DNA from: an archaeon
GTDB lineage: Archaea; Aenigmatarchaeota; Aenigmatarchaeia; GW2011-AR5
Assembly: GCA_028279825.1 (NCBI GenBank)
Contig: JANQNA010000002.1
Coordinates: forward strand, 1 to 64,000
Reading direction: 5' to 3'
DNA length: 64,000 nt
Each line of letters starts with the position of its first letter. Within the stretch, counting starts at the first letter, position 1. Under the pieces are notes generated by a model, which did not search any database, was not told the origin of the DNA, and was given only the letters and a program-made list of their open reading frames with translations. A program made the position numbers and the translations under genes. Shown here one piece after another: positions 45,826-58,564 of this stretch.

Positions 45826-45963
45826 TAGCGGAGGGTGGATTTGAATTCGGCAGCAAGAACGAAAGTTGCTTGCTTCCACCGACCTCCGGGTTATGGGCCC
45901 GACGAGCATTCAAGCGATAGAAACACTTCGTGTTTCAATCTCTCCAGGCTGCTCTACTCCGCT
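45826..45963 (-). tRNA. Initiator tRNA-Met (CAU) with two hairpin-bearing insertions
   Basis: Read on the minus strand the gene has AGCGGAG/CTCCGCT acceptor, GAGC/GCTC D-stem, anticodon arm TCGGG CCCATAA CCCGG and T-arm GGTGG ... TTCAAAT CCACC, the archaeal initiator pattern. About 32 extra bases lie in the D-loop, with the stem GAAACAC/GTGTTTC, and 30 lie between GGTGG and TTCAAAT, with AGCAAG/CTTGCT. These look like two introns at non-canonical positions. Base 33 is C rather than T, as in some eukaryotic initiators. Confidence 0.8.
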
Positions 45964-46057
45964 GTGAACAAAAAGTAATTCGTGCTTATTCTTAAATAAA
46001 CAACAAAAACGCATTACGCGGAAATTACAACTACCTCGAATAGATTTTTAATAGCGC

Positions 46058-46065
46058 TATAAATA
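46058..46065 (+). promoter_or_regulatory. TATA box for the RNase HII-fold cluster
   Basis: TATAAATA lies 26 bp before ATG 46091, consistent with a leaderless transcript. Confidence 0.6.
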
Positions 46066-46090: not shown

Positions 46091-46705
46091 ATGGGTAGTG
46101 GTCGGCTTATTGGAATTGACGAGACAGGTAGTTTTGGCGAACATAAATTTTGTTTGGTTGTTGCTGTTGAGTCACAAAATCCAGGAGACGGTACCCGCAG
46201 ACATAACCTTCCCAAAAAACGCAGGGGTGCATTGATAAGGGCGGAGGAACCGGAAAGGGATTTTAGGTTCATACACCTCAAACCGGAAATGGAAGATTGG
46301 GTCAATGGCCATGCCATTGGGCTTCAGGAAGTTGCAAGGGCACATCTTCTGATACAACTTGGATTTGATCCGACATCTGAAAAGGCTTTTATTGATGCAT
46401 ACAGAAATCCAAGTGCTTTTGCAAGAGGTATAAAGGACGTTCTTTATGGAGAATATGGTGGAATTCCACGCGGATCTGTAATATGCAGAAGAAATGCTGA
46501 CAATCAATATCCCATAGTCAGACGGGCACATGAACGTGGTTACGGCTTGCTTGATAGTTATGAATTTTTTTCATCACTTTGTGTACCGTTTGGCCGAGAA
46601 CATTTTGAGCGTTTATCGTTGGGCGCTAATGGGGGATCCCACAAAAAACCTGAATACGTGAACATTCCTCCTTCACGTCGTGGTATTGTAAGACCTTATG
46701 GATAG
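46091..46705 (+). CDS. RNase HII-fold paralog A, divergent
   Basis: The 204-residue protein starts GRLIGIDETGSFGEHKF, like the first strand of RNase HII (GIDExG) but without the GRG motif. KAFIDAYRN near residue 97 can supply the third acidic residue and NADNQYPIVRRAH near 137 the fourth (RNase HII: AD...S). It overlaps the next gene by 8 bp. DUF3800-type proteins share this start, so the assignment is to the fold, not to the activity. No known substrate. Confidence 0.6.
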   Translation: MGSGRLIGIDETGSFGEHKFCLVVAVESQNPGDGTRRHNLPKKRRGALIRAEEPERDFRFIHLKPEMEDWVNGHAIGLQEVARAHLLIQLGFDPTSEKAFIDAYRNPSAFARGIKDVLYGEYGGIPRGSVICRRNADNQYPIVRRAHERGYGLLDSYEFFSSLCVPFGREHFERLSLGANGGSHKKPEYVNIPPSRRGIVRPYG

Positions 46706-47372
46706 TGTTTTAATGAGAATTGCAAGACCAAGATTTTTTGCTGCTGATGAGAGTGGTTATTTCCAGCCTCACCTGGATGAGCATTCATCTATTGACAGAA
46801 GACGGATGATGCTACAGGTTGGCGTATCTAATTTGTATAGTGATGTAGAAAGATATCCCGGAAGAGAAATTCTGAGGAGATGTTATCTGGATAAGCGTCT
46901 TTCTACTGGACGTATTAGAGGCAGGTGGACAGAACTTAATGGTCAGCATTCAACTATCGAGGGACTGGAATACACACCCCTGACCTCTACACAGATATGG
47001 ATGATTGCATTTGTGCACCTTCTCAAAGAGGCTGGGTTTAGGGGATTGCCGGGACAGCGCGCTTACGTTGATAAATTCTGGCGTGATTATCAGGATTCGT
47101 TATTTGAGGAATGTCTTGCGCATTTTGAATTGCCTACAGATCAGGTTACTGTTACGCGCATGCATCATGCTGATGACGAGATTCCTCTTGTGTGCAGGAC
47201 AGATCTGGAAGTACATGATCTATATACAAGCAGACAGGCACGCGAAAGAAATCGTGATCTGTGGGTTGATCTTCCGACTGATGTTGTTATGGGAGCCATA
47301 GGTGTAATGTCTGGAGAGGCAGCTTTTAAACGATCCCTTCCAAGTAGTTGGTATGAAAGTCCTCGGAATTGA
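46698..47372 (+). CDS. RNase HII-fold paralog B, divergent
   Basis: The 224-residue protein has RFFAADESGYF, then after a charged insertion MMLQVGVSN; RAYVDKFWRD near residue 119; and HHADDEIPLV near 150. These align in order with the four acidic positions of RNase HII and with paralog A (AYVDKF against AFIDAY). GRG is again absent. ATG 46713 is a possible shorter start. It overlaps rnhB by 20 bp, indicating coupled expression. Confidence 0.6.
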   Translation: MDSVLMRIARPRFFAADESGYFQPHLDEHSSIDRRRMMLQVGVSNLYSDVERYPGREILRRCYLDKRLSTGRIRGRWTELNGQHSTIEGLEYTPLTSTQIWMIAFVHLLKEAGFRGLPGQRAYVDKFWRDYQDSLFEECLAHFELPTDQVTVTRMHHADDEIPLVCRTDLEVHDLYTSRQARERNRDLWVDLPTDVVMGAIGVMSGEAAFKRSLPSSWYESPRN

Positions 47373-48009
47373 TGAATCCGGAAGAGGGCCCGTATGCGGG
47401 CCGCTGGTTTTATGCGGCTACTTGATTGATGAAGCTAAGGTGAAAAAGCTCAAAACTTTGGGCGTTAAGGATTCAAAGCTGCTTTCTCCAGAACAGCGAA
47501 CGCAAATAGCTTCTTCTTTGAAGAAACTGGCAGATGATTATGTTCTTCTGAAAGTATCAGCAAAGGAAATTGATAAATTAAGGGATAAAACTAACATCAA
47601 CCTCCTGGAAATAGAAAAAATGCAGCAAATTATCAATGCGCTAAATCCGGAAAAGGTTGTTATAGACTCTCCGGAGACAAACACGGTCAGATTTACAGAA
47701 AAAATCAGAGGCAAACTGAAAAACAAGCGTGTGAAGATAATTTCAGAGAATTATGCTGATAAAAATCACCTGGAAGTATCAGCGGCCTCTATTCTGGCCA
47801 AACAGCTCCGCGATGCGGAGGTAAAGAAACTCCATAAAAAACACGGATTCTTCGGATCGGGATACCCCAGCGACGAGGTAACTGTTAAGTTTTTAAGGGC
47901 TTGGATCAAGAAGAATAAGGAGTTTCCGGATTTTGTAAGGAAAAGCTGGTATACAGCCCAAAAAATGATGGAAGAAAAACAACAGACAAACTTGAGGGGA
48001 TTCAAGTGA
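47353..48009 (+). CDS. rnhB: Ribonuclease HII
   Basis: Cleaves RNA in RNA-DNA hybrids and at single ribonucleotides. The 218-residue protein has LGIDESGRGPVCGPLV with D-E and GRG, VVIDSPETN with the third Asp, and ENYADKNHLEVSAASILAK with the fourth Asp, as in archaeal RNase HII. It is third in a tandem with two diverged relatives. Confidence 0.92.
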   Translation: MKVLGIDESGRGPVCGPLVLCGYLIDEAKVKKLKTLGVKDSKLLSPEQRTQIASSLKKLADDYVLLKVSAKEIDKLRDKTNINLLEIEKMQQIINALNPEKVVIDSPETNTVRFTEKIRGKLKNKRVKIISENYADKNHLEVSAASILAKQLRDAEVKKLHKKHGFFGSGYPSDEVTVKFLRAWIKKNKEFPDFVRKSWYTAQKMMEEKQQTNLRGFK

Positions 48010-48269
48010 AGTACTTTGACTTTGAGTTAAGGACAACAAGCATCTACACGGTGGTTGCTATATTAATGGGGTATGTCTCCTTTACTATGAACCACACAGC
48101 CTATGCTACAGTTGCAGCACTGGTTGTGCTTGTTGCAGTGACTTTTGGTATGAGATTTCTATGGAAGATAAAGGAAAGTGCGCGGTGGTGGCTTGCAAAC
48201 GGGGCTGTTGTTTATTTGTTTGTATGGATCATTGTCTGGACAGTTTTCTATAATGCTTACGTGATCTAA
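48006..48269 (+). CDS. Small membrane protein
   Basis: The 87-residue product has three hydrophobic segments (about residues 12-25, 32-50, 62-85). GTG 48006 overlaps the rnhB stop, and the stop codon abuts the AspRS start. Unknown family. Confidence 0.6.
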   Translation: MKYFDFELRTTSIYTVVAILMGYVSFTMNHTAYATVAALVVLVAVTFGMRFLWKIKESARWWLANGAVVYLFVWIIVWTVFYNAYVI

Positions 48270-50704: not shown

Positions 50705-50734
50705 GGGGGAAACACAATATTTTTTTAGTTGTTC

Positions 50735-53700
50735 ATGAAAGCCCAAACAGCTTTAGGACTATTTGTAGTATTTGCAGTAGCTTTGTCACTATTTGCGATA
50801 TCTGTTGATGCAAGAGTATGCGTTGATGACAATGATTGTGACATTGGTGAATCGTGCGTGGACATACTTGATGAAGTTGGCACGTGTGAATCTGATGGTT
50901 CTGACACACCTCCGGGTGATACCGGGACTACCTCAGCAAGCTGTGATTCAGTTACATGTACAGGCGGAGAGCAGTGTGTAAACGGCATGTGTGTTGATCC
51001 TTATGATTTTGATGTTGACGAAGCGTTGACATGCTCGAGCGACGCTGACTGTGCTCATATTCCTACGGACGGTTCTTTTGATAAATGGGTGTGTCCTCCG
51101 GCTGATGGTCCGGACGGCTGGGGAGAACCAAGGATATGCATAAGGGATGGCGTATCAATCTGGCAGCATCACAACGGTATTACTGCTTACGGTGAAAAGG
51201 CCGTATACAAGCGATGTAAATGTAATACTAACAACTGCGGTACCGACTGCGGTATTGATCCTAACCTGAATTATGAGCAATGCGAGAATGACCGTTGCGG
51301 AAGACCTGAATGGGAGAATCCTTCAAAGGACTCATGGTCTGATTCAGATCCACTCCCGGCGCTTGTGGGTGTTGATCCTCTTTGTGTTTACAGGATGAAC
51401 CTTACGGAAGCTGCCGGCGGAGGTCCGTATGCTGTCTGCTCCGGCGGAAGCTGTGCAGAGAGGGGTGGTTTTCTAAATCAACCACCTGGTCGTCCCGGTC
51501 TTTCTGCAGCTAATCCACTGGAGGTTACACCGCATTTTGTTGACGAAGATTCAGAATTCGCGACATCACTTGCTTCAATGTGGATAAAGAAACGAGGCGA
51601 TCCTGTGGAGGGTTCAGACGGGAACTATTACTGGGGTCTTGGCAATGCAATGTTTTATATCGACATTTTAACCCCGACTGAAGTGCAGAAGTGTGATCTG
51701 GTTGACGGACAGGACAGGCCTCAGATAGTGCCTGCATGTGCAGGGACTCAGGACGATTGTACTTACTGGTTTGAGAATCATTATCACTGCGGATCATGCA
51801 CTAAATTAAACGGATGGGATCCTGTATCAACTGAATCTGTCTGTGAGGAAAGATTCAGGAAAATAGTGTCAAAGGAACAATACAAGACTTATGCCTGCGG
51901 TGAACATCAGGTTGATACCGTTGGTGAATTCATAGGCTGTGCCGAATCTCCGGGCGATTTCAGGGACAAGGAGGTTGGAAGAGCACTTTGTAAGTTTGGC
52001 TGCGCCCAAGGTTACTGCAAGTGTAGCAATCCTCCTACACTGACTTCACTTACCGTGACACCGGAACAGGTGACAATGGGTGAGCCATTGGAGATTACGA
52101 GTGTTGCAAAAGATCCTGACAAAGTATACGGCTGGGATGATCCTCCGTCGCAGCAGCAAATAAAACTTAGATGCGGTACGACAGGCGGCGGGCTTACCGG
52201 CGTGTCGATGCAGGGTACATGTGACTACGAAAAACCAAGCGTCACACTTACATGGACTGCACCCGATTCAATAACGCAGAACGTTATCCTGAAAAGAAAA
52301 AGTACGGGATCGTTTACAGAAACCCCGCCAATTACACTTCCTTTGGGGGAAAGAAAATGGACAGACTCTGACATTGAAAAAGGTGAGGCTTATGTTTACA
52401 GATTCAAGGCAAGTACAACAGATTTTGCAGACGTTAAGATAGAAATATCCGAAGAGTCATGTGCCAACTCGACGGCACAGGAATTTGCAGCTGTTTGTAC
52501 CGGCGGGTCAACACCTAGCGTAGAACTTTCATGGACAATTGCACCCGGAGCAGAGCAGAACGTTATCCTGAAGAGGAAGAACAACGGATCTTTTGTGGAA
52601 TACCCAAAAGTTGTTGACGAGGCAAACGCTCCTTTCGTGACTTCAGCTATTGATACTGATGTCGAACTTGGAACCACTTATGTTTACAGATATAAACCGG
52701 ATACAATGACTGCAACGGATGTCAGTGTTGAAGTCTCAGCGATAAACTGTGCCGATGCTCCTGCAGGCGGATCAAATCCTATAACCGGCCAGGTAACATT
52801 TGGTATTCCAATAACAGGGATGTCATCACCTGGCTGCCAGGGAAGTCATTTTACCGGTGCTACCGGAACTTGTGCTACGCATAAAAGTAATAATCCTGGC
52901 GGATGGGGAAAGCACGCTGTCTGCGGCGTGCCTGACAGGGTCAGGATGATAATCCACCACTATGAGTGCCCGGGAAAATCATATCCATACACGGGTCCAA
53001 TATTTACTGATTGTGCAGTTACGTTCGACCTGACTGCATTCAAAGGTAACCAGGAAATTGATGTTGCATCTGATCCGGTTATAGAACCTTGTACCGGTGC
53101 AGAATTCCACTGGGGCCGTAAAGATTGTTTTGTTCCCAGAGGAAACACAAGAGAAGCAGGGCAGGTTACATGCAGTGCAACCATAGCCGGGGTCAGAGGT
53201 TCCAAAACATTTACAGTGCAAGGGGGATCCGGCGGTGGGGGCGGACCAGGTGACACCGGCGGCGGATCCAGCAGCGGACCTTGCCCTAAGCCAACACCAT
53301 TTGATGCTAATCTCTGTGAAGGTGAGTGGGCAGACGAAAACCCGTCATGTACAGTAACTGAATTCCCTGCCGAGTGGGCAACTGAAGGCGGAGAGAAAAC
53401 AATCTACTGTGTTGTAACAGACAAATACAGGCCAGGACTGACTTCAGATCCATTGGAGGTCAAGATCATGCTGGATGCAACGGGGCCTATATCAGAGATA
53501 AAGTCTCCTGACGATGGAAGTGCACAGAGCTTTGCGTTTCCTGTAGAAGTTTCCGATGTTGACGACCAGGAACTTGACGTGTGTTATTATTACACAAAGT
53601 ATGAGGGCGGCGAAAAGGAAGTTGCGGAAAGACCATGTGATTCCAAGATTGTTGTCAGCGTAGGTCCCGGAATGGACTGTCCGATGCACGGTGACTGCGA

Positions 53701-56700
53701 GGTTGTCGTATACGCAACTGATGCATCGGGAAATGAGGGTGAACATGCTTCAAGAACTTATTCGATAAAACTAATCAAGACAAATATTACAGAGCCTCTG
53801 GAAAACACATACCGCACGAAAATGTTTGAGGTAACCGTGAATGATGATGATTTTCTGTCCTATGGTGTTGATTGTTCTTACAGCGTGCAGTCCATAAACG
53901 GATCTGATATAATAACCACAGTTAACGACACTTTACGTGAATGCAACGGAAAGTTCAACGTAACAATAGGTCCGGACGGCGACTGTAACATCATGCAGGA
54001 AGATGAAAACACATGCAGGGTTGTTTCAAGGATAAACGCAACGATTGAGGGCGTTCCCGCAGAAGACAAGGATGTTAAATATTACAAGGTTGACTGGGTA
54101 ACACCGTTCTCAGAAATAATTCCAAAGCCAACCGGCTGGGCAAGCAGAGACTTTACACTTCTGGTTCACGACAGCCCGAGTATCGGCGGCATATCACAGT
54201 GCCAGTACAGGGTTGTGAGCAACTCAACACAGACAATTCCATGGAAAACAAGGGACTGCAGCGGTGAAGAACCTTCGGAGCTGGTAATAGGCGTAGGTGC
54301 AAATGCTGAATGCAGGCATGAAGGCGGAAGAGCATGCAAGATATTTGTAAGACCGCTGGATGCAAACGGTAACCCAGGGTACGGTGACAACGTAACGGTT
54401 CCTATAATATTCGGCGTTGACGACGTAAACGGATTTTCAATATACGAGTCGGAGACGACGGATATTGGCCTGGATTTCACGGGCAGATTGAGATCTGACA
54501 TTGAAATGCGCGCGGCTTCCTTCTATGCGTGCCATGCCGACTCAAATGTGGACAACTGCATATCATCGTACAACGCAGAGAGAAGCGGCATAAAATACTC
54601 AAATCTTTGTGGTTCATTCCTGATGGACGGCCAGGGACAATGCCAGCTAAGATGCAATGACATGGTTCTTCCATACTACTTTGTTGCAAGGGGACAGACA
54701 ACAACGGGATCAATTGACACTATTACGGTGATAAGTCCTGTTACCGAAGGATACTGTCCTACATTCAGGATAGATGAGATTAACGAGCTTCTCGAGATAT
54801 TCCAGAATCTGGAGGAAGGAATTTCAATACAGATAAGCCAGATGGATATTTTCATACAGCAAAACGGCGAGAATGACTTTGTGAACAATGAGACGCTTGC
54901 AGCTCACCGAGAGGCACTGATGCTTACCATAGATCATCTGCAATTCATGGAGATTACAATGCAGGACCTTAGTGTTCCAATTGCTGAAAATCTGATAGAT
55001 GTGTCAAATGACAGGCTTGATGAAATAAATGACCTGCTGAACAATCTTGTCACACCAACTTCACTGAAGATGTCACTGACAATGCCTGACATAATAAGAT
55101 ACAACACATCGACTGTATTGCCTGTGACAGTCACAAAGACAGGTCCAAGAGATATGTACGGAACAGTTTACTGTTCAGTCACAAAGCCTGGCGGTGAAAC
55201 ACTCCGTGAGAAGTCCGCATGTGCACCTGTTGACGATCCTATAACATTTGACCTTCCATTTACAACAGACAGGATAGGCACGTGGTCCTACAACTGCATA
55301 CTTGGAAGAGCAATAAGATCTGACTGCTCGTTTGAGGTAAACACTTCACCTAGAGTGGGCACATTTGAATCAATGCCAGGGCTTGGAAGTTACATCGAGT
55401 CAATATCAGCTCCTAGTACTGCTACAAAGAGAGAACTGATAGTGGTGAATGCCATGGTTAATAATCCGGATGAAGTCGAGAAATTTGTCAAGGTAAGATG
55501 CGACTTCATTGACCCTCAGGGATTCTTTGACAGGAACTATTCTGAATGCACGAACATACCGGCTAATGATGTTGGTGTTGCAACCGTTTACAGAACTGCG
55601 GACAGGATTGGAAACTGGACAATCAACCGCTGCAGGGTGGAAGCTTCGGAATTTGCAGGGTGCCACAGCCTCGTACTTAATAATGTTTCACTGGAAGAGA
55701 AGAATGTTACTGTGATACTGCCAACAGACCTTTACATAGAGGCAGTCTATGTTCCCGGCAGTCCTGTTATGAATGATACGAAGGTGAGCCTGTCGGCTGT
55801 CGTGCAAAACCCTTCAAGTCAGGCAGCCTTTGCCACGTTTGAGTGTAATTTCAGGAATCCTCAGGAAACTTATACGCTTTCAGGCCAGCAGGGAATCGAG
55901 CTTGGCTCAAATACACAGTTCCAGCTGAACATAACAGCAGACATAGTTGGCAACTGGTATGTTGACAACTGTACTATCAGCAAGTCTTCAAATCCGGATT
56001 ACTCGGCTTCTGTGCCTACGTATACAACAAACAATCCTGGATCGTTTGAGGTCATCAAGGGGACAAACCTTACAATTACATCCGTTTCTCTGCCACCACC
56101 GGTGGATAACGGAACACTGGCGGGCATAGATGTGTCTGTTAGAAATCCTTCCGTAGCACGCTATGCACAGGTGAGTTGTGTGGTGAGAAATCCACTGAAC
56201 TTCCCGACCACCGAGACGTCATTGTGTTCAGAGGTTGGCACGGATGAAACAGTAAGTCTTCCTGTCAGCGTACTGATTGACCAGTATGGTGTATGGAATG
56301 TGGATTCATGTTCTGTTTATGGCTCACTTTCCGCTGACTGCGCTTCGCGTGTATTGCATGGAACTGTTTACACTCCCGGAAACCTGGAAACATCAAGTCC
56401 TTATGATACTTCATCAGTTGCAAATCTCTACATAAACAGCGTAAACACTCCATCTTCCGCATACAAGGGAAGCAAGACAAACATACTGCTTGACGTGGTA
56501 AACACAAATCATACACATGTTGCTTATGCGCTTGCCGGATGTACTTCAGAGAATCCTGTAAGCGGCACGGAGAGACTTGTGTCTGAATGCACGCAGATTC
56601 CTGCAAGCACTTCACAGTTTGTCGCCTTGCCTCAGAGCCTGGATGTTGCAGGTGAGTGGACAATCGATGAATGTTTTGTCAATTCGTCTACCAAGACTGA

Positions 56701-58564
56701 CTGCAGTCCATCTGTCACTACAAATACTTCCGAAGAGGTGAGAACTTTTGATGTTGTTGACCCTACTGATTTGTTTGTTAGCGAGGTCGAGGCACCGGAT
56801 ACAATTGTCAACAACAGTGACGCCGGCATAAATGTCCAGGTTACGAACCCGCTTACAGATGACAAGTTCGGTTCAGTCCTGTGTACGATCACGAATCCAA
56901 AGGGAATCAACCAGACTGCATCAATGCCTTGTACAGTTGTGCTGAAACAGTCAACAAAGACTTACAACTTCTCGGTATTTGCAGACACTGCAGGAACATG
57001 GGTTGTTTCAAAGTGTTCTGTCCAGTCCTCATCAAGTCTTGGATGTGCAGGTGCTGTAGCTACCGGGGAACTTTACAACGGTGATACGTTTAGTGTCATA
57101 AGAGGATACAACTTGCAGTTTTCAACAATAAATGTTAATGAACCTGTTTATCTTGACGGAAGGATAAAGGTTGACTATACCGTTTACAATCCATCAACTA
57201 CTGACAGGTTTTCAAGAGTTTCATGTACAGCTTCAAAGGGCGGGATTACAAAATCTAATTCAAGCGTATGCACTTCCATTACCCGTGAGTCATTTACAAC
57301 TGGATCATTGTCAATGCAGGCCGATTCACTGGGCCAGTGGAACCTGTTGTGCAATCTTGAAAGATCCTTCGATGACTCATGCTCAACACCAACTGCAGAT
57401 GATTCACTTGCAAGGACAATCAGCGTTACAAACCCGCCTGACCTGTTCATTGAATCAGTAGACGTGCCAAGTATTGCCGACAAAGACAAACCAGTCGGGA
57501 TTATAGTTAACGTGAAGAATATCGGAGTTGTTGAAAGGTATGGATACGTCGGATGTACGTTTGAGAACTTTAGGAATGAAACGTTCCAGAACAGTTCAAT
57601 ATGCACGGACTTCACAAGAGATATATCAACGCCTGTTGTACAGTTTACTCCTGAGTTTAGAGGAAACTGGGATGTTTATGACTGCTTTGTCAGGGTAGCA
57701 GATACAATGTCACAGTGCGAAAACAACACAGCCACGCTGCATAACAAATCAACGGAGAAGCACTCATTCAACGTACAGTCACCTGCTCTTATGATAGTGG
57801 ATGCAAAAATTGCCAACGACAACCTGTTTGTTGGTGACCTTCTTGACATAGAGGTTGACGTCAAGAATGATGACGTTGAAGACGTGCTTGCATTCGTGAA
57901 CTGTACTGTATTTGACCCGGCCAATAACAAGTATGAAGTATCCTCGCCGGAGTCAATGATAAGTATGGGAGTTACTGATACTTACCACGTACAGAAACTT
58001 GTTGATGTTACAGGAACATGGAGGGTGACAACCTGCAGTGTCTACAGCATACACAGCCCTCCTACACTGGAAGATCAGATAACACTTGGAGAGATAATTG
58101 ACGTTTACGCAACTCCACCGGCAGACTACTGCAGTGCTACAATACCATGCCCTACAGGCCAGAAGTGCGAGAACAACAAGTGTGTGTCTTTACAGACATG
58201 CAGCCTGTCTAATTGTCCGGGCGTAAAAAATGCCTGTTACTGCCAGGGCAACAGCTGTATAGCATGCGGTGCCGGATTCACATGCATATCAGCCAAGTGC
58301 GTACCGGAGACGCCTAACACACAGGTCTGCCGTACGGTAAGTGACTGCGCAGCCGGGCTTTCATGTATAGGCGGTATTTGCGTTGAGCCTCCAGCAGAAT
58401 GTGCACAGGATTCAGATTGTCCTGTGGATCTTGCATGTGAAAACGGAACATGCAAGGTTCCTTCAGAAGGAATCAGTCAGGACCTGCTTAACCTGGTTGC
58501 AATAGCTCTTGGCGTAATAGCAGTCCCGGCAATCTTGTTTGTTTATATCAGGCGGGTGATGTGA
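50735..58564 (+). CDS. Giant surface protein 2 with about nine Ig-like repeats
   Basis: The 2609-residue protein has a signal peptide (MKAQTALGLFVVF..., cleaved near DARVC), a Cys-rich head, fibronectin/Ig-like domains, and a Gly/Ser linker near residue 830. Residues about 1440-2450 hold roughly nine tandem repeats of 115-120 residues, each with a start such as DLYIEAVYVPGS or NLYINSVNTPSS, a VxNP motif, one Cys, and a W-x-(V/I)-x2-C ending, so each probably has one disulfide. A Cys-rich stalk and a C-terminal helix with RRVM follow. It is CARDB-like and probably an S-layer or adhesin component. ATG 50735 preferred to TTG 50729. Confidence 0.8.
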   Translation: MKAQTALGLFVVFAVALSLFAISVDARVCVDDNDCDIGESCVDILDEVGTCESDGSDTPPGDTGTTSASCDSVTCTGGEQCVNGMCVDPYDFDVDEALTCSSDADCAHIPTDGSFDKWVCPPADGPDGWGEPRICIRDGVSIWQHHNGITAYGEKAVYKRCKCNTNNCGTDCGIDPNLNYEQCENDRCGRPEWENPSKDSWSDSDPLPALVGVDPLCVYRMNLTEAAGGGPYAVCSGGSCAERGGFLNQPPGRPGLSAANPLEVTPHFVDEDSEFATSLASMWIKKRGDPVEGSDGNYYWGLGNAMFYIDILTPTEVQKCDLVDGQDRPQIVPACAGTQDDCTYWFENHYHCGSCTKLNGWDPVSTESVCEERFRKIVSKEQYKTYACGEHQVDTVGEFIGCAESPGDFRDKEVGRALCKFGCAQGYCKCSNPPTLTSLTVTPEQVTMGEPLEITSVAKDPDKVYGWDDPPSQQQIKLRCGTTGGGLTGVSMQGTCDYEKPSVTLTWTAPDSITQNVILKRKSTGSFTETPPITLPLGERKWTDSDIEKGEAYVYRFKASTTDFADVKIEISEESCANSTAQEFAAVCTGGSTPSVELSWTIAPGAEQNVILKRKNNGSFVEYPKVVDEANAPFVTSAIDTDVELGTTYVYRYKPDTMTATDVSVEVSAINCADAPAGGSNPITGQVTFGIPITGMSSPGCQGSHFTGATGTCATHKSNNPGGWGKHAVCGVPDRVRMIIHHYECPGKSYPYTGPIFTDCAVTFDLTAFKGNQEIDVASDPVIEPCTGAEFHWGRKDCFVPRGNTREAGQVTCSATIAGVRGSKTFTVQGGSGGGGGPGDTGGGSSSGPCPKPTPFDANLCEGEWADENPSCTVTEFPAEWATEGGEKTIYCVVTDKYRPGLTSDPLEVKIMLDATGPISEIKSPDDGSAQSFAFPVEVSDVDDQELDVCYYYTKYEGGEKEVAERPCDSKIVVSVGPGMDCPMHGDCEVVVYATDASGNEGEHASRTYSIKLIKTNITEPLENTYRTKMFEVTVNDDDFLSYGVDCSYSVQSINGSDIITTVNDTLRECNGKFNVTIGPDGDCNIMQEDENTCRVVSRINATIEGVPAEDKDVKYYKVDWVTPFSEIIPKPTGWASRDFTLLVHDSPSIGGISQCQYRVVSNSTQTIPWKTRDCSGEEPSELVIGVGANAECRHEGGRACKIFVRPLDANGNPGYGDNVTVPIIFGVDDVNGFSIYESETTDIGLDFTGRLRSDIEMRAASFYACHADSNVDNCISSYNAERSGIKYSNLCGSFLMDGQGQCQLRCNDMVLPYYFVARGQTTTGSIDTITVISPVTEGYCPTFRIDEINELLEIFQNLEEGISIQISQMDIFIQQNGENDFVNNETLAAHREALMLTIDHLQFMEITMQDLSVPIAENLIDVSNDRLDEINDLLNNLVTPTSLKMSLTMPDIIRYNTSTVLPVTVTKTGPRDMYGTVYCSVTKPGGETLREKSACAPVDDPITFDLPFTTDRIGTWSYNCILGRAIRSDCSFEVNTSPRVGTFESMPGLGSYIESISAPSTATKRELIVVNAMVNNPDEVEKFVKVRCDFIDPQGFFDRNYSECTNIPANDVGVATVYRTADRIGNWTINRCRVEASEFAGCHSLVLNNVSLEEKNVTVILPTDLYIEAVYVPGSPVMNDTKVSLSAVVQNPSSQAAFATFECNFRNPQETYTLSGQQGIELGSNTQFQLNITADIVGNWYVDNCTISKSSNPDYSASVPTYTTNNPGSFEVIKGTNLTITSVSLPPPVDNGTLAGIDVSVRNPSVARYAQVSCVVRNPLNFPTTETSLCSEVGTDETVSLPVSVLIDQYGVWNVDSCSVYGSLSADCASRVLHGTVYTPGNLETSSPYDTSSVANLYINSVNTPSSAYKGSKTNILLDVVNTNHTHVAYALAGCTSENPVSGTERLVSECTQIPASTSQFVALPQSLDVAGEWTIDECFVNSSTKTDCSPSVTTNTSEEVRTFDVVDPTDLFVSEVEAPDTIVNNSDAGINVQVTNPLTDDKFGSVLCTITNPKGINQTASMPCTVVLKQSTKTYNFSVFADTAGTWVVSKCSVQSSSSLGCAGAVATGELYNGDTFSVIRGYNLQFSTINVNEPVYLDGRIKVDYTVYNPSTTDRFSRVSCTASKGGITKSNSSVCTSITRESFTTGSLSMQADSLGQWNLLCNLERSFDDSCSTPTADDSLARTISVTNPPDLFIESVDVPSIADKDKPVGIIVNVKNIGVVERYGYVGCTFENFRNETFQNSSICTDFTRDISTPVVQFTPEFRGNWDVYDCFVRVADTMSQCENNTATLHNKSTEKHSFNVQSPALMIVDAKIANDNLFVGDLLDIEVDVKNDDVEDVLAFVNCTVFDPANNKYEVSSPESMISMGVTDTYHVQKLVDVTGTWRVTTCSVYSIHSPPTLEDQITLGEIIDVYATPPADYCSATIPCPTGQKCENNKCVSLQTCSLSNCPGVKNACYCQGNSCIACGAGFTCISAKCVPETPNTQVCRTVSDCAAGLSCIGGICVEPPAECAQDSDCPVDLACENGTCKVPSEGISQDLLNLVAIALGVIAVPAILFVYIRRVM

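Follow-up and report, generated by a model that had tools for sequence, protein, structure and literature searches.

Two RNase HII-like genes upstream of rnhB in an Aenigmatarchaeota genome keep the predicted catalytic residues and have lost the ribonucleotide-reading motifs

RNase HII removes stray ribonucleotides from DNA. Directly upstream of the gene for this enzyme, rnhB, the genome of an uncultured Aenigmatarchaeota archaeon carries two genes, here A and B, whose products are supported by structure prediction and sequence comparison as RNase HII-fold proteins without a ribonucleotide reader. They are members of a hitherto unnamed and rapidly evolving family of RNase HII paralogues, which makes up a new and divergent branch within the lineage of this enzyme. 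We assign a probability of roughly 0.55 to the reading that A and B are RNase HII paralogues that kept the site residues, lost the reader, and probably serve as nucleases alongside RNase HII.

Open reading frame (ORF) calling on the window, by which we mean the whole 64,000-nucleotide stretch of DNA analyzed, placed A, B, and rnhB head to tail on the plus strand, as follows.

46057-46065, plus strand: TATA-like box CTATAAATA, about 30 nt 5' of the gene A ATG (read from the sequence)
46091-46705, plus strand: gene A, A-type RNase HII-like paralogue, 204 aa (ORF, family, AlphaFold2, Foldseek)
46698-47372, plus strand: gene B, B-type RNase HII-like paralogue, 224 aa (ORF, relative in G002, AlphaFold2, Foldseek)
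47353-48009, plus strand: rnhB, canonical archaeal RNase HII, 218 aa (TIGR00729, PF01351)
48006-48269, plus strand: small membrane protein gene, the downstream neighbor (ORF, gene order)

The A/B and B/rnhB overlaps measure 8 nt and 20 nt, bearing out a preliminary description of this DNA in which two genes preceded rnhB and overlapped into it. The overlaps suggest coupled translation, and A and B are probably cotranscribed with rnhB; the spacing of the TATA-like box fits a leaderless transcript beginning at gene A. The small membrane protein gene sits 3' of rnhB in most relatives. GC3 is 0.29 in A and 0.33 in B, against 0.42 to 0.48 in the neighboring genes.

The window rnhB matches TIGR00729 (E = 3e-61, 207 bits against a cut-off of 123) and PF01351 (E = 8.5e-45), and encodes the motifs DESGRG, VIDSPE, ENYADKNHLEVSAAS, and GSGYPSD as well as a C-terminal PIP-like QTNLRGF. 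A and B, in contrast, matched neither profile even at E ≤ 10, and single-sequence searches with them returned no match in Pfam, NCBIfam, PHROGs, PADLOC, or PDB sequences. Among the papers searched, none joined RNase HII and DPANN archaea, and none of the libraries searched names the A/B family.

A scan of genome contigs found relatives of A and B only in the archaea listed here, and none were found in viral contigs or phage records. When relatives of the window genome were searched, G001, G003, and G005 each proved to have a single A-like gene, and G002 a B-like one. Reading the ORFs before rnhB added two members that the first profile had missed, in G006 (L066 1184-1909, minus strand) and G024 (L108 1950-2450, plus strand); because these were chosen for lying 5' of rnhB and for having DExG without GRG, they carry a mild selection. 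Two weak matches, L044 and L045, were rejected as unrelated frames. This brings the family to eight members, spread over 7 of the 156 Aenigmatarchaeota genomes searched, with pairwise identities of 17 to 38%; each of the eight immediately precedes rnhB and shares its strand. This holds even in G024, which belongs to another family of the order and has different genes upstream from those of the window.

The AlphaFold2 models of A (pLDDT 69.6, pTM 0.72) and B (pLDDT 75.3, pTM 0.77), built from six-row alignments containing no RNase HII sequence, share the order b1-b2-b3-aA-b4-aB-b5-aC. When these models were compared with the PDB using Foldseek, the top match for A was the archaeal RNase HII 1eke (E = 9e-5, probability 1.00), and its first 13 matches were all RNase HII/H2. 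For B, an archaeal RNase HII was again on top (E = 7e-4, probability 0.99), and the top matches were RNase HII/HIII. Confidence in the models is moderate, and their TM-scores to RNase HII are modest (0.42 to 0.53). A search of the viral structure library gave no match at E ≤ 0.001.

Profile comparison led to the same relatives. Aligning the eight-member family with 89 RNase HII/HIII sequences in hhalign gave 93% across 134 columns and brought the D-E, D, and A-D positions into register, whereas 60 column-shuffled decoys reached a maximum of 3%. The value was 89 to 90% when either G006 or G024 was left out and 60% when both were; the first six-row alignment, compared with archaeal RNase HII alone, gave 1.3%, and the link became clear only with these two members and the wider RNase HII set. 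In addition, a profile of the eight members, built without RNase HII, had six matches outside the family at E ≤ 0.01 over the 156 genomes, all of them RNase HII/HIII: rnhB in G106, G038, G148, G020, and G025 and RNase HIII in G013. Taken together, AlphaFold2/Foldseek, hhalign, and the profile search support descent from RNase HII and agree on the RNase HII fold proposed in the preliminary description, and none of them pointed to a fold other than RNase H.

A different ancestry, from DUF3800 (PF12686), is the least probable of the readings we considered. DUF3800 proteins are RNase H-fold nucleases that share with A and B an N-terminal DESG motif, a middle Asp, and an Asp in the C-terminal helix. 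The family's N-terminal 33 columns match DUF3800 with hhalign values of 46 to 51%, and the first profile weakly matched a DUF3800 gene in G003. The similarity is restricted to the N terminus, however, and DUF3800 has no counterpart of the AD-x-x-YP-x-V stretch. With the N-terminal DExG part removed, DUF3800 fell to 0.05% while RNase HII remained at 83%, and the larger profile dropped DUF3800 and matched rnhB. A and B themselves gave no match to PF12686 at E ≤ 10, and DUF3800 is absent from the window genome. On the basis of the truncation and the larger-profile search, we rejected DUF3800 as the origin of the family.

We next turn to the predicted active site, whose residues map to the window as follows.

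46118-46123, plus strand: A D10 and E11, catalytic pair in predicted strand b1, invariant in 8/8
46124-46135, plus strand: A T12-G13-S14-F15, replacing A-G-R-G in the alignment with RNase HII
46394-46396, plus strand: A D102 (FID102AY), end of predicted strand b4, invariant in 8/8
46499-46501, plus strand: A D137 (AD137), in the loop preceding the C-terminal helix, corresponding to the fourth carboxylate of RNase HII, D/E in 8/8
46529-46531, plus strand: A H147, within the C-terminal helix, D/E/H in 8/8
46746-46751, plus strand: B D17 and E18, catalytic pair (family alignment)
47070-47072, plus strand: B D125 (YVD125KF), end of b4 (AlphaFold2, family alignment)
47172-47174, plus strand: B D159 (AD159), in a short predicted helix (residues 158 to 161) that follows b5 and precedes the C-terminal helix, an RNase H2-like placement
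47202-47204, plus strand: B D169, within the C-terminal helix (AlphaFold2, family alignment)

Apart from Met1, the only columns invariant across the eight members are D10, E11, G13, and D102 (A numbering), and with pairwise identity as low as it is, this acidic pattern goes beyond chance. The D-E pair, middle Asp, and late A-D previously read in A and B in the order of RNase HII are present in both and acidic in all members, with G002 carrying Glu in place of the late Asp. In the predicted secondary structure of A and B, the acidic residues fall on strands and loops at the same places as in RNase HII. Archaeal RNase HII (PF01351, TIGR00729; PDB 1eke and 1io2) likewise has an RNase H fold with the same order of strands and helices, D-E in b1, D ending b4, a further D in the loop ahead of the C-terminal helix, and an A-D-x-x-Y-P-x-V-x-x-A stretch.

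One further position sets the family apart. Ten residues after the late Asp, at position 147, six members have Asp, G024 has Glu, and A has His, where RNase HII has Ser. RNase H2 has its fourth carboxylate in the loop leading into the last helix, while other RNase H-fold enzymes have their last catalytic residue, D, E, or H, within the helix (PMC3025331, PMC3985635). As judged from the alignment and the models, the A/B family combines the loop carboxylate with the helix D/E/H; the latter, newly seen here in every member, resembles other RNase H-fold enzymes and is unlike RNase HII. RNase H1 (PF00075) also has an acidic residue or His at the helix position but has neither the D-E pair nor the loop Asp of the RNase H2 type; we searched the window genome for RNase H1 and did not find it.

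In the RNase H2 of Thermotoga maritima, the GRG motif and a Tyr detect the 2'-OH of the ribonucleotide (PMC3025331). The preliminary description held that A and B lack GRG. This is accurate for the Arg and the second Gly, which are gone from all eight members, but the first Gly (G13 in A) is kept. The GSGYxSD motif with the C-terminal Tyr that senses the junction was absent from all eight sequences inspected and present in the adjoining rnhB. The DSK motif of archaeal RNase HII is also missing from A and B, and their C termini differ from that of the enzyme.

RNase HIII (rnhC, TIGR00716), itself an RNase HII paralogue with the same fold, is set apart from A and B by its GKG motif and its TBP-like N-terminal domain, for which A and B have no room given that their D-E pairs fall at residues 10 to 18; neither matches TIGR00716. 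An RNase HIII distinct from A and B is encoded on contig C5 of the window genome, and an RNase HIII-like fusion on contig C2.

The family's phylogenetic pattern suggests a dispensable function, given its rapid divergence and patchy presence. By pairwise identity, A groups with the genes of G001, G003, and G005 (28 to 30%) and B with that of G002 (26%), so that A and B may have diverged before the genus arose, one of the two copies being lost later. Two copies are found in the window genome only. A survey of neighboring genomes had been proposed to look for the trio of two paralogues and rnhB; it recovered a single copy with rnhB in the other six genomes. Fast divergence, patchiness, and the reciprocal loss of A-type and B-type genes within one genus could be read as the decay of functionless rnhB duplicates. 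Decay is nevertheless unlikely, as the frames are intact in eight members from two families and conservation is confined to the site residues, which would be unexpected under decay.

The slot before rnhB holds other ORFs elsewhere, which raises the question of whether A and B are free-standing mobile or conflict nucleases, homing-like or defensive, that settled there. PD-(D/E)XK-like ORFs occupy the slot in G009, G014, and G018 and LAGLIDADG ORFs in G011 and G053; nine genomes have tiny bulge-helix-bulge-like insertions in the GRG codons of rnhB; and A and B have lower GC3 than their neighbors. On the other hand, rnhB is uninterrupted in 6 of the 7 genomes with the family, which means that no intron shields a target there, all members stay at one locus, and neither a PADLOC match nor a viral or phage relative was found. 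We consider a mobile origin improbable, though marginally less so than decay.

We return to A and B as paralogues that would work beside RNase HII. The preliminary description left open a nuclease with a new specificity or a regulator of RNase HII, and retention of the predicted metal-site residues favors the nuclease. As partners, for example heteromer subunits, A and B would alter the stability, loading, or substrate choice of RNase HII. Such a role would be consistent with the unfailing proximity of the family to rnhB, with the translational coupling suggested by the gene overlaps in the window, and with the full loss of the substrate-reading parts. However, D, E, D, and the late acid are the family's most conserved residues and a pure partner needs none of them, and genomes with rnhB alone are common; we regard this role as unlikely, if less so than mobility or decay. 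Conservation confined to the predicted metal site argues instead for a working nuclease.

On the preferred reading, A and B retain a predicted RNase H fold together with the D-E-D-D carboxylates of the predicted catalytic site. Having lost the C-terminal Tyr motif as well as the Arg and second Gly of GRG, they would no longer detect a ribonucleotide. They have also kept or gained an acidic or His residue in the C-terminal helix, at the RNase H1-type last catalytic place. They would most likely be Mg2+/Mn2+-dependent endonucleases that no longer require a DNA-embedded ribonucleotide, since the loss of both readers points to a different substrate. They would probably share a repair or primer/hybrid-removal step with RNase HII; the constant position before rnhB suggests a shared pathway, yet tandem duplication could leave the same trace. 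A more specific proposal, which we advance tentatively and at less than even odds, is that of a new nuclease family that unites an H2-type loop carboxylate with an H1-type helix residue and whose specificity complements that of RNase HII from within the same operon. If active, A and B would show RNase HII turning into a nuclease of other specificity, with the center kept, the reader removed, and a helix residue added. They would also offer a natural experiment separating the parts of RNase HII for cutting from those for recognition, and would point to a partner activity in the way archaea repair ribonucleotides or remove RNA/DNA hybrids.

Several additional features of these genomes emerged from the analysis. 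The RNase HIII-like fusion gene (P0001; G000 contig C2 132273-133754, L078 1273-2754) encodes 493 aa with an RNase HIII-like domain, a zinc ribbon, and a PIN domain; the first of these consists of DUF3378 and RNase_HII, with GVG replacing GRG/GKG, and a phage-integrase-like ORF adjoins the gene. In family f1, second matches to TIGR00729 indicate both RNase HII and an RNase HIII-like gene in nearly every genome.

In genus g7 (G009, G014, and G018), the place directly before rnhB is taken by a single ORF or a pair of ORFs carrying PD...(V/I)E(V/I)K motifs (L070 3406-3813 and 3865-4260; L072 992-1540, minus strand; L073 1297-1806). They had no match in Pfam and, from their motifs, are possibly PD-(D/E)XK nucleases. 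The LAGLIDADG-type ORFs of G011 (L071 3097-4113, flipped) and G053 (L133 1408-2436) lie directly before an interrupted rnhB. Such interruptions, 18 to 34 nt long, share one insertion point within the GRG codons and in most cases disrupt the frame; they occur in nine genomes of the phylum: G001 (L075), G011 (L071), G020 (L113), G026 (L116), G030 (L114), G033 (L127), G043 (L120), G053 (L133), and G075 (L128). The window rnhB has no insertion. The insertion can fold as a bulge-helix-bulge (CYGGNAGA...CCRTTAGG-like), and its removal restores G-R-G; an exon Ala codon, GCC or GCT, pairs with CCG or CCA at the insertion end, and the two change together. It looks like an archaeal mRNA mini-intron within the ribonucleotide-reading motif; archaeal mRNA introns of this kind are known for cbf5 (PMC2738675).

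Elsewhere in the window, positions 45828-45966 (minus strand) resemble an elongator tRNA-Met gene with two introns, unreported by ARAGORN, and relatives have LAGLIDADG ORFs near this place. Positions 50729-58564 (plus strand) encode a probable surface protein of 2,611 aa; its domains, which contain Cys, are repeated, and a transmembrane segment lies at its C terminus.
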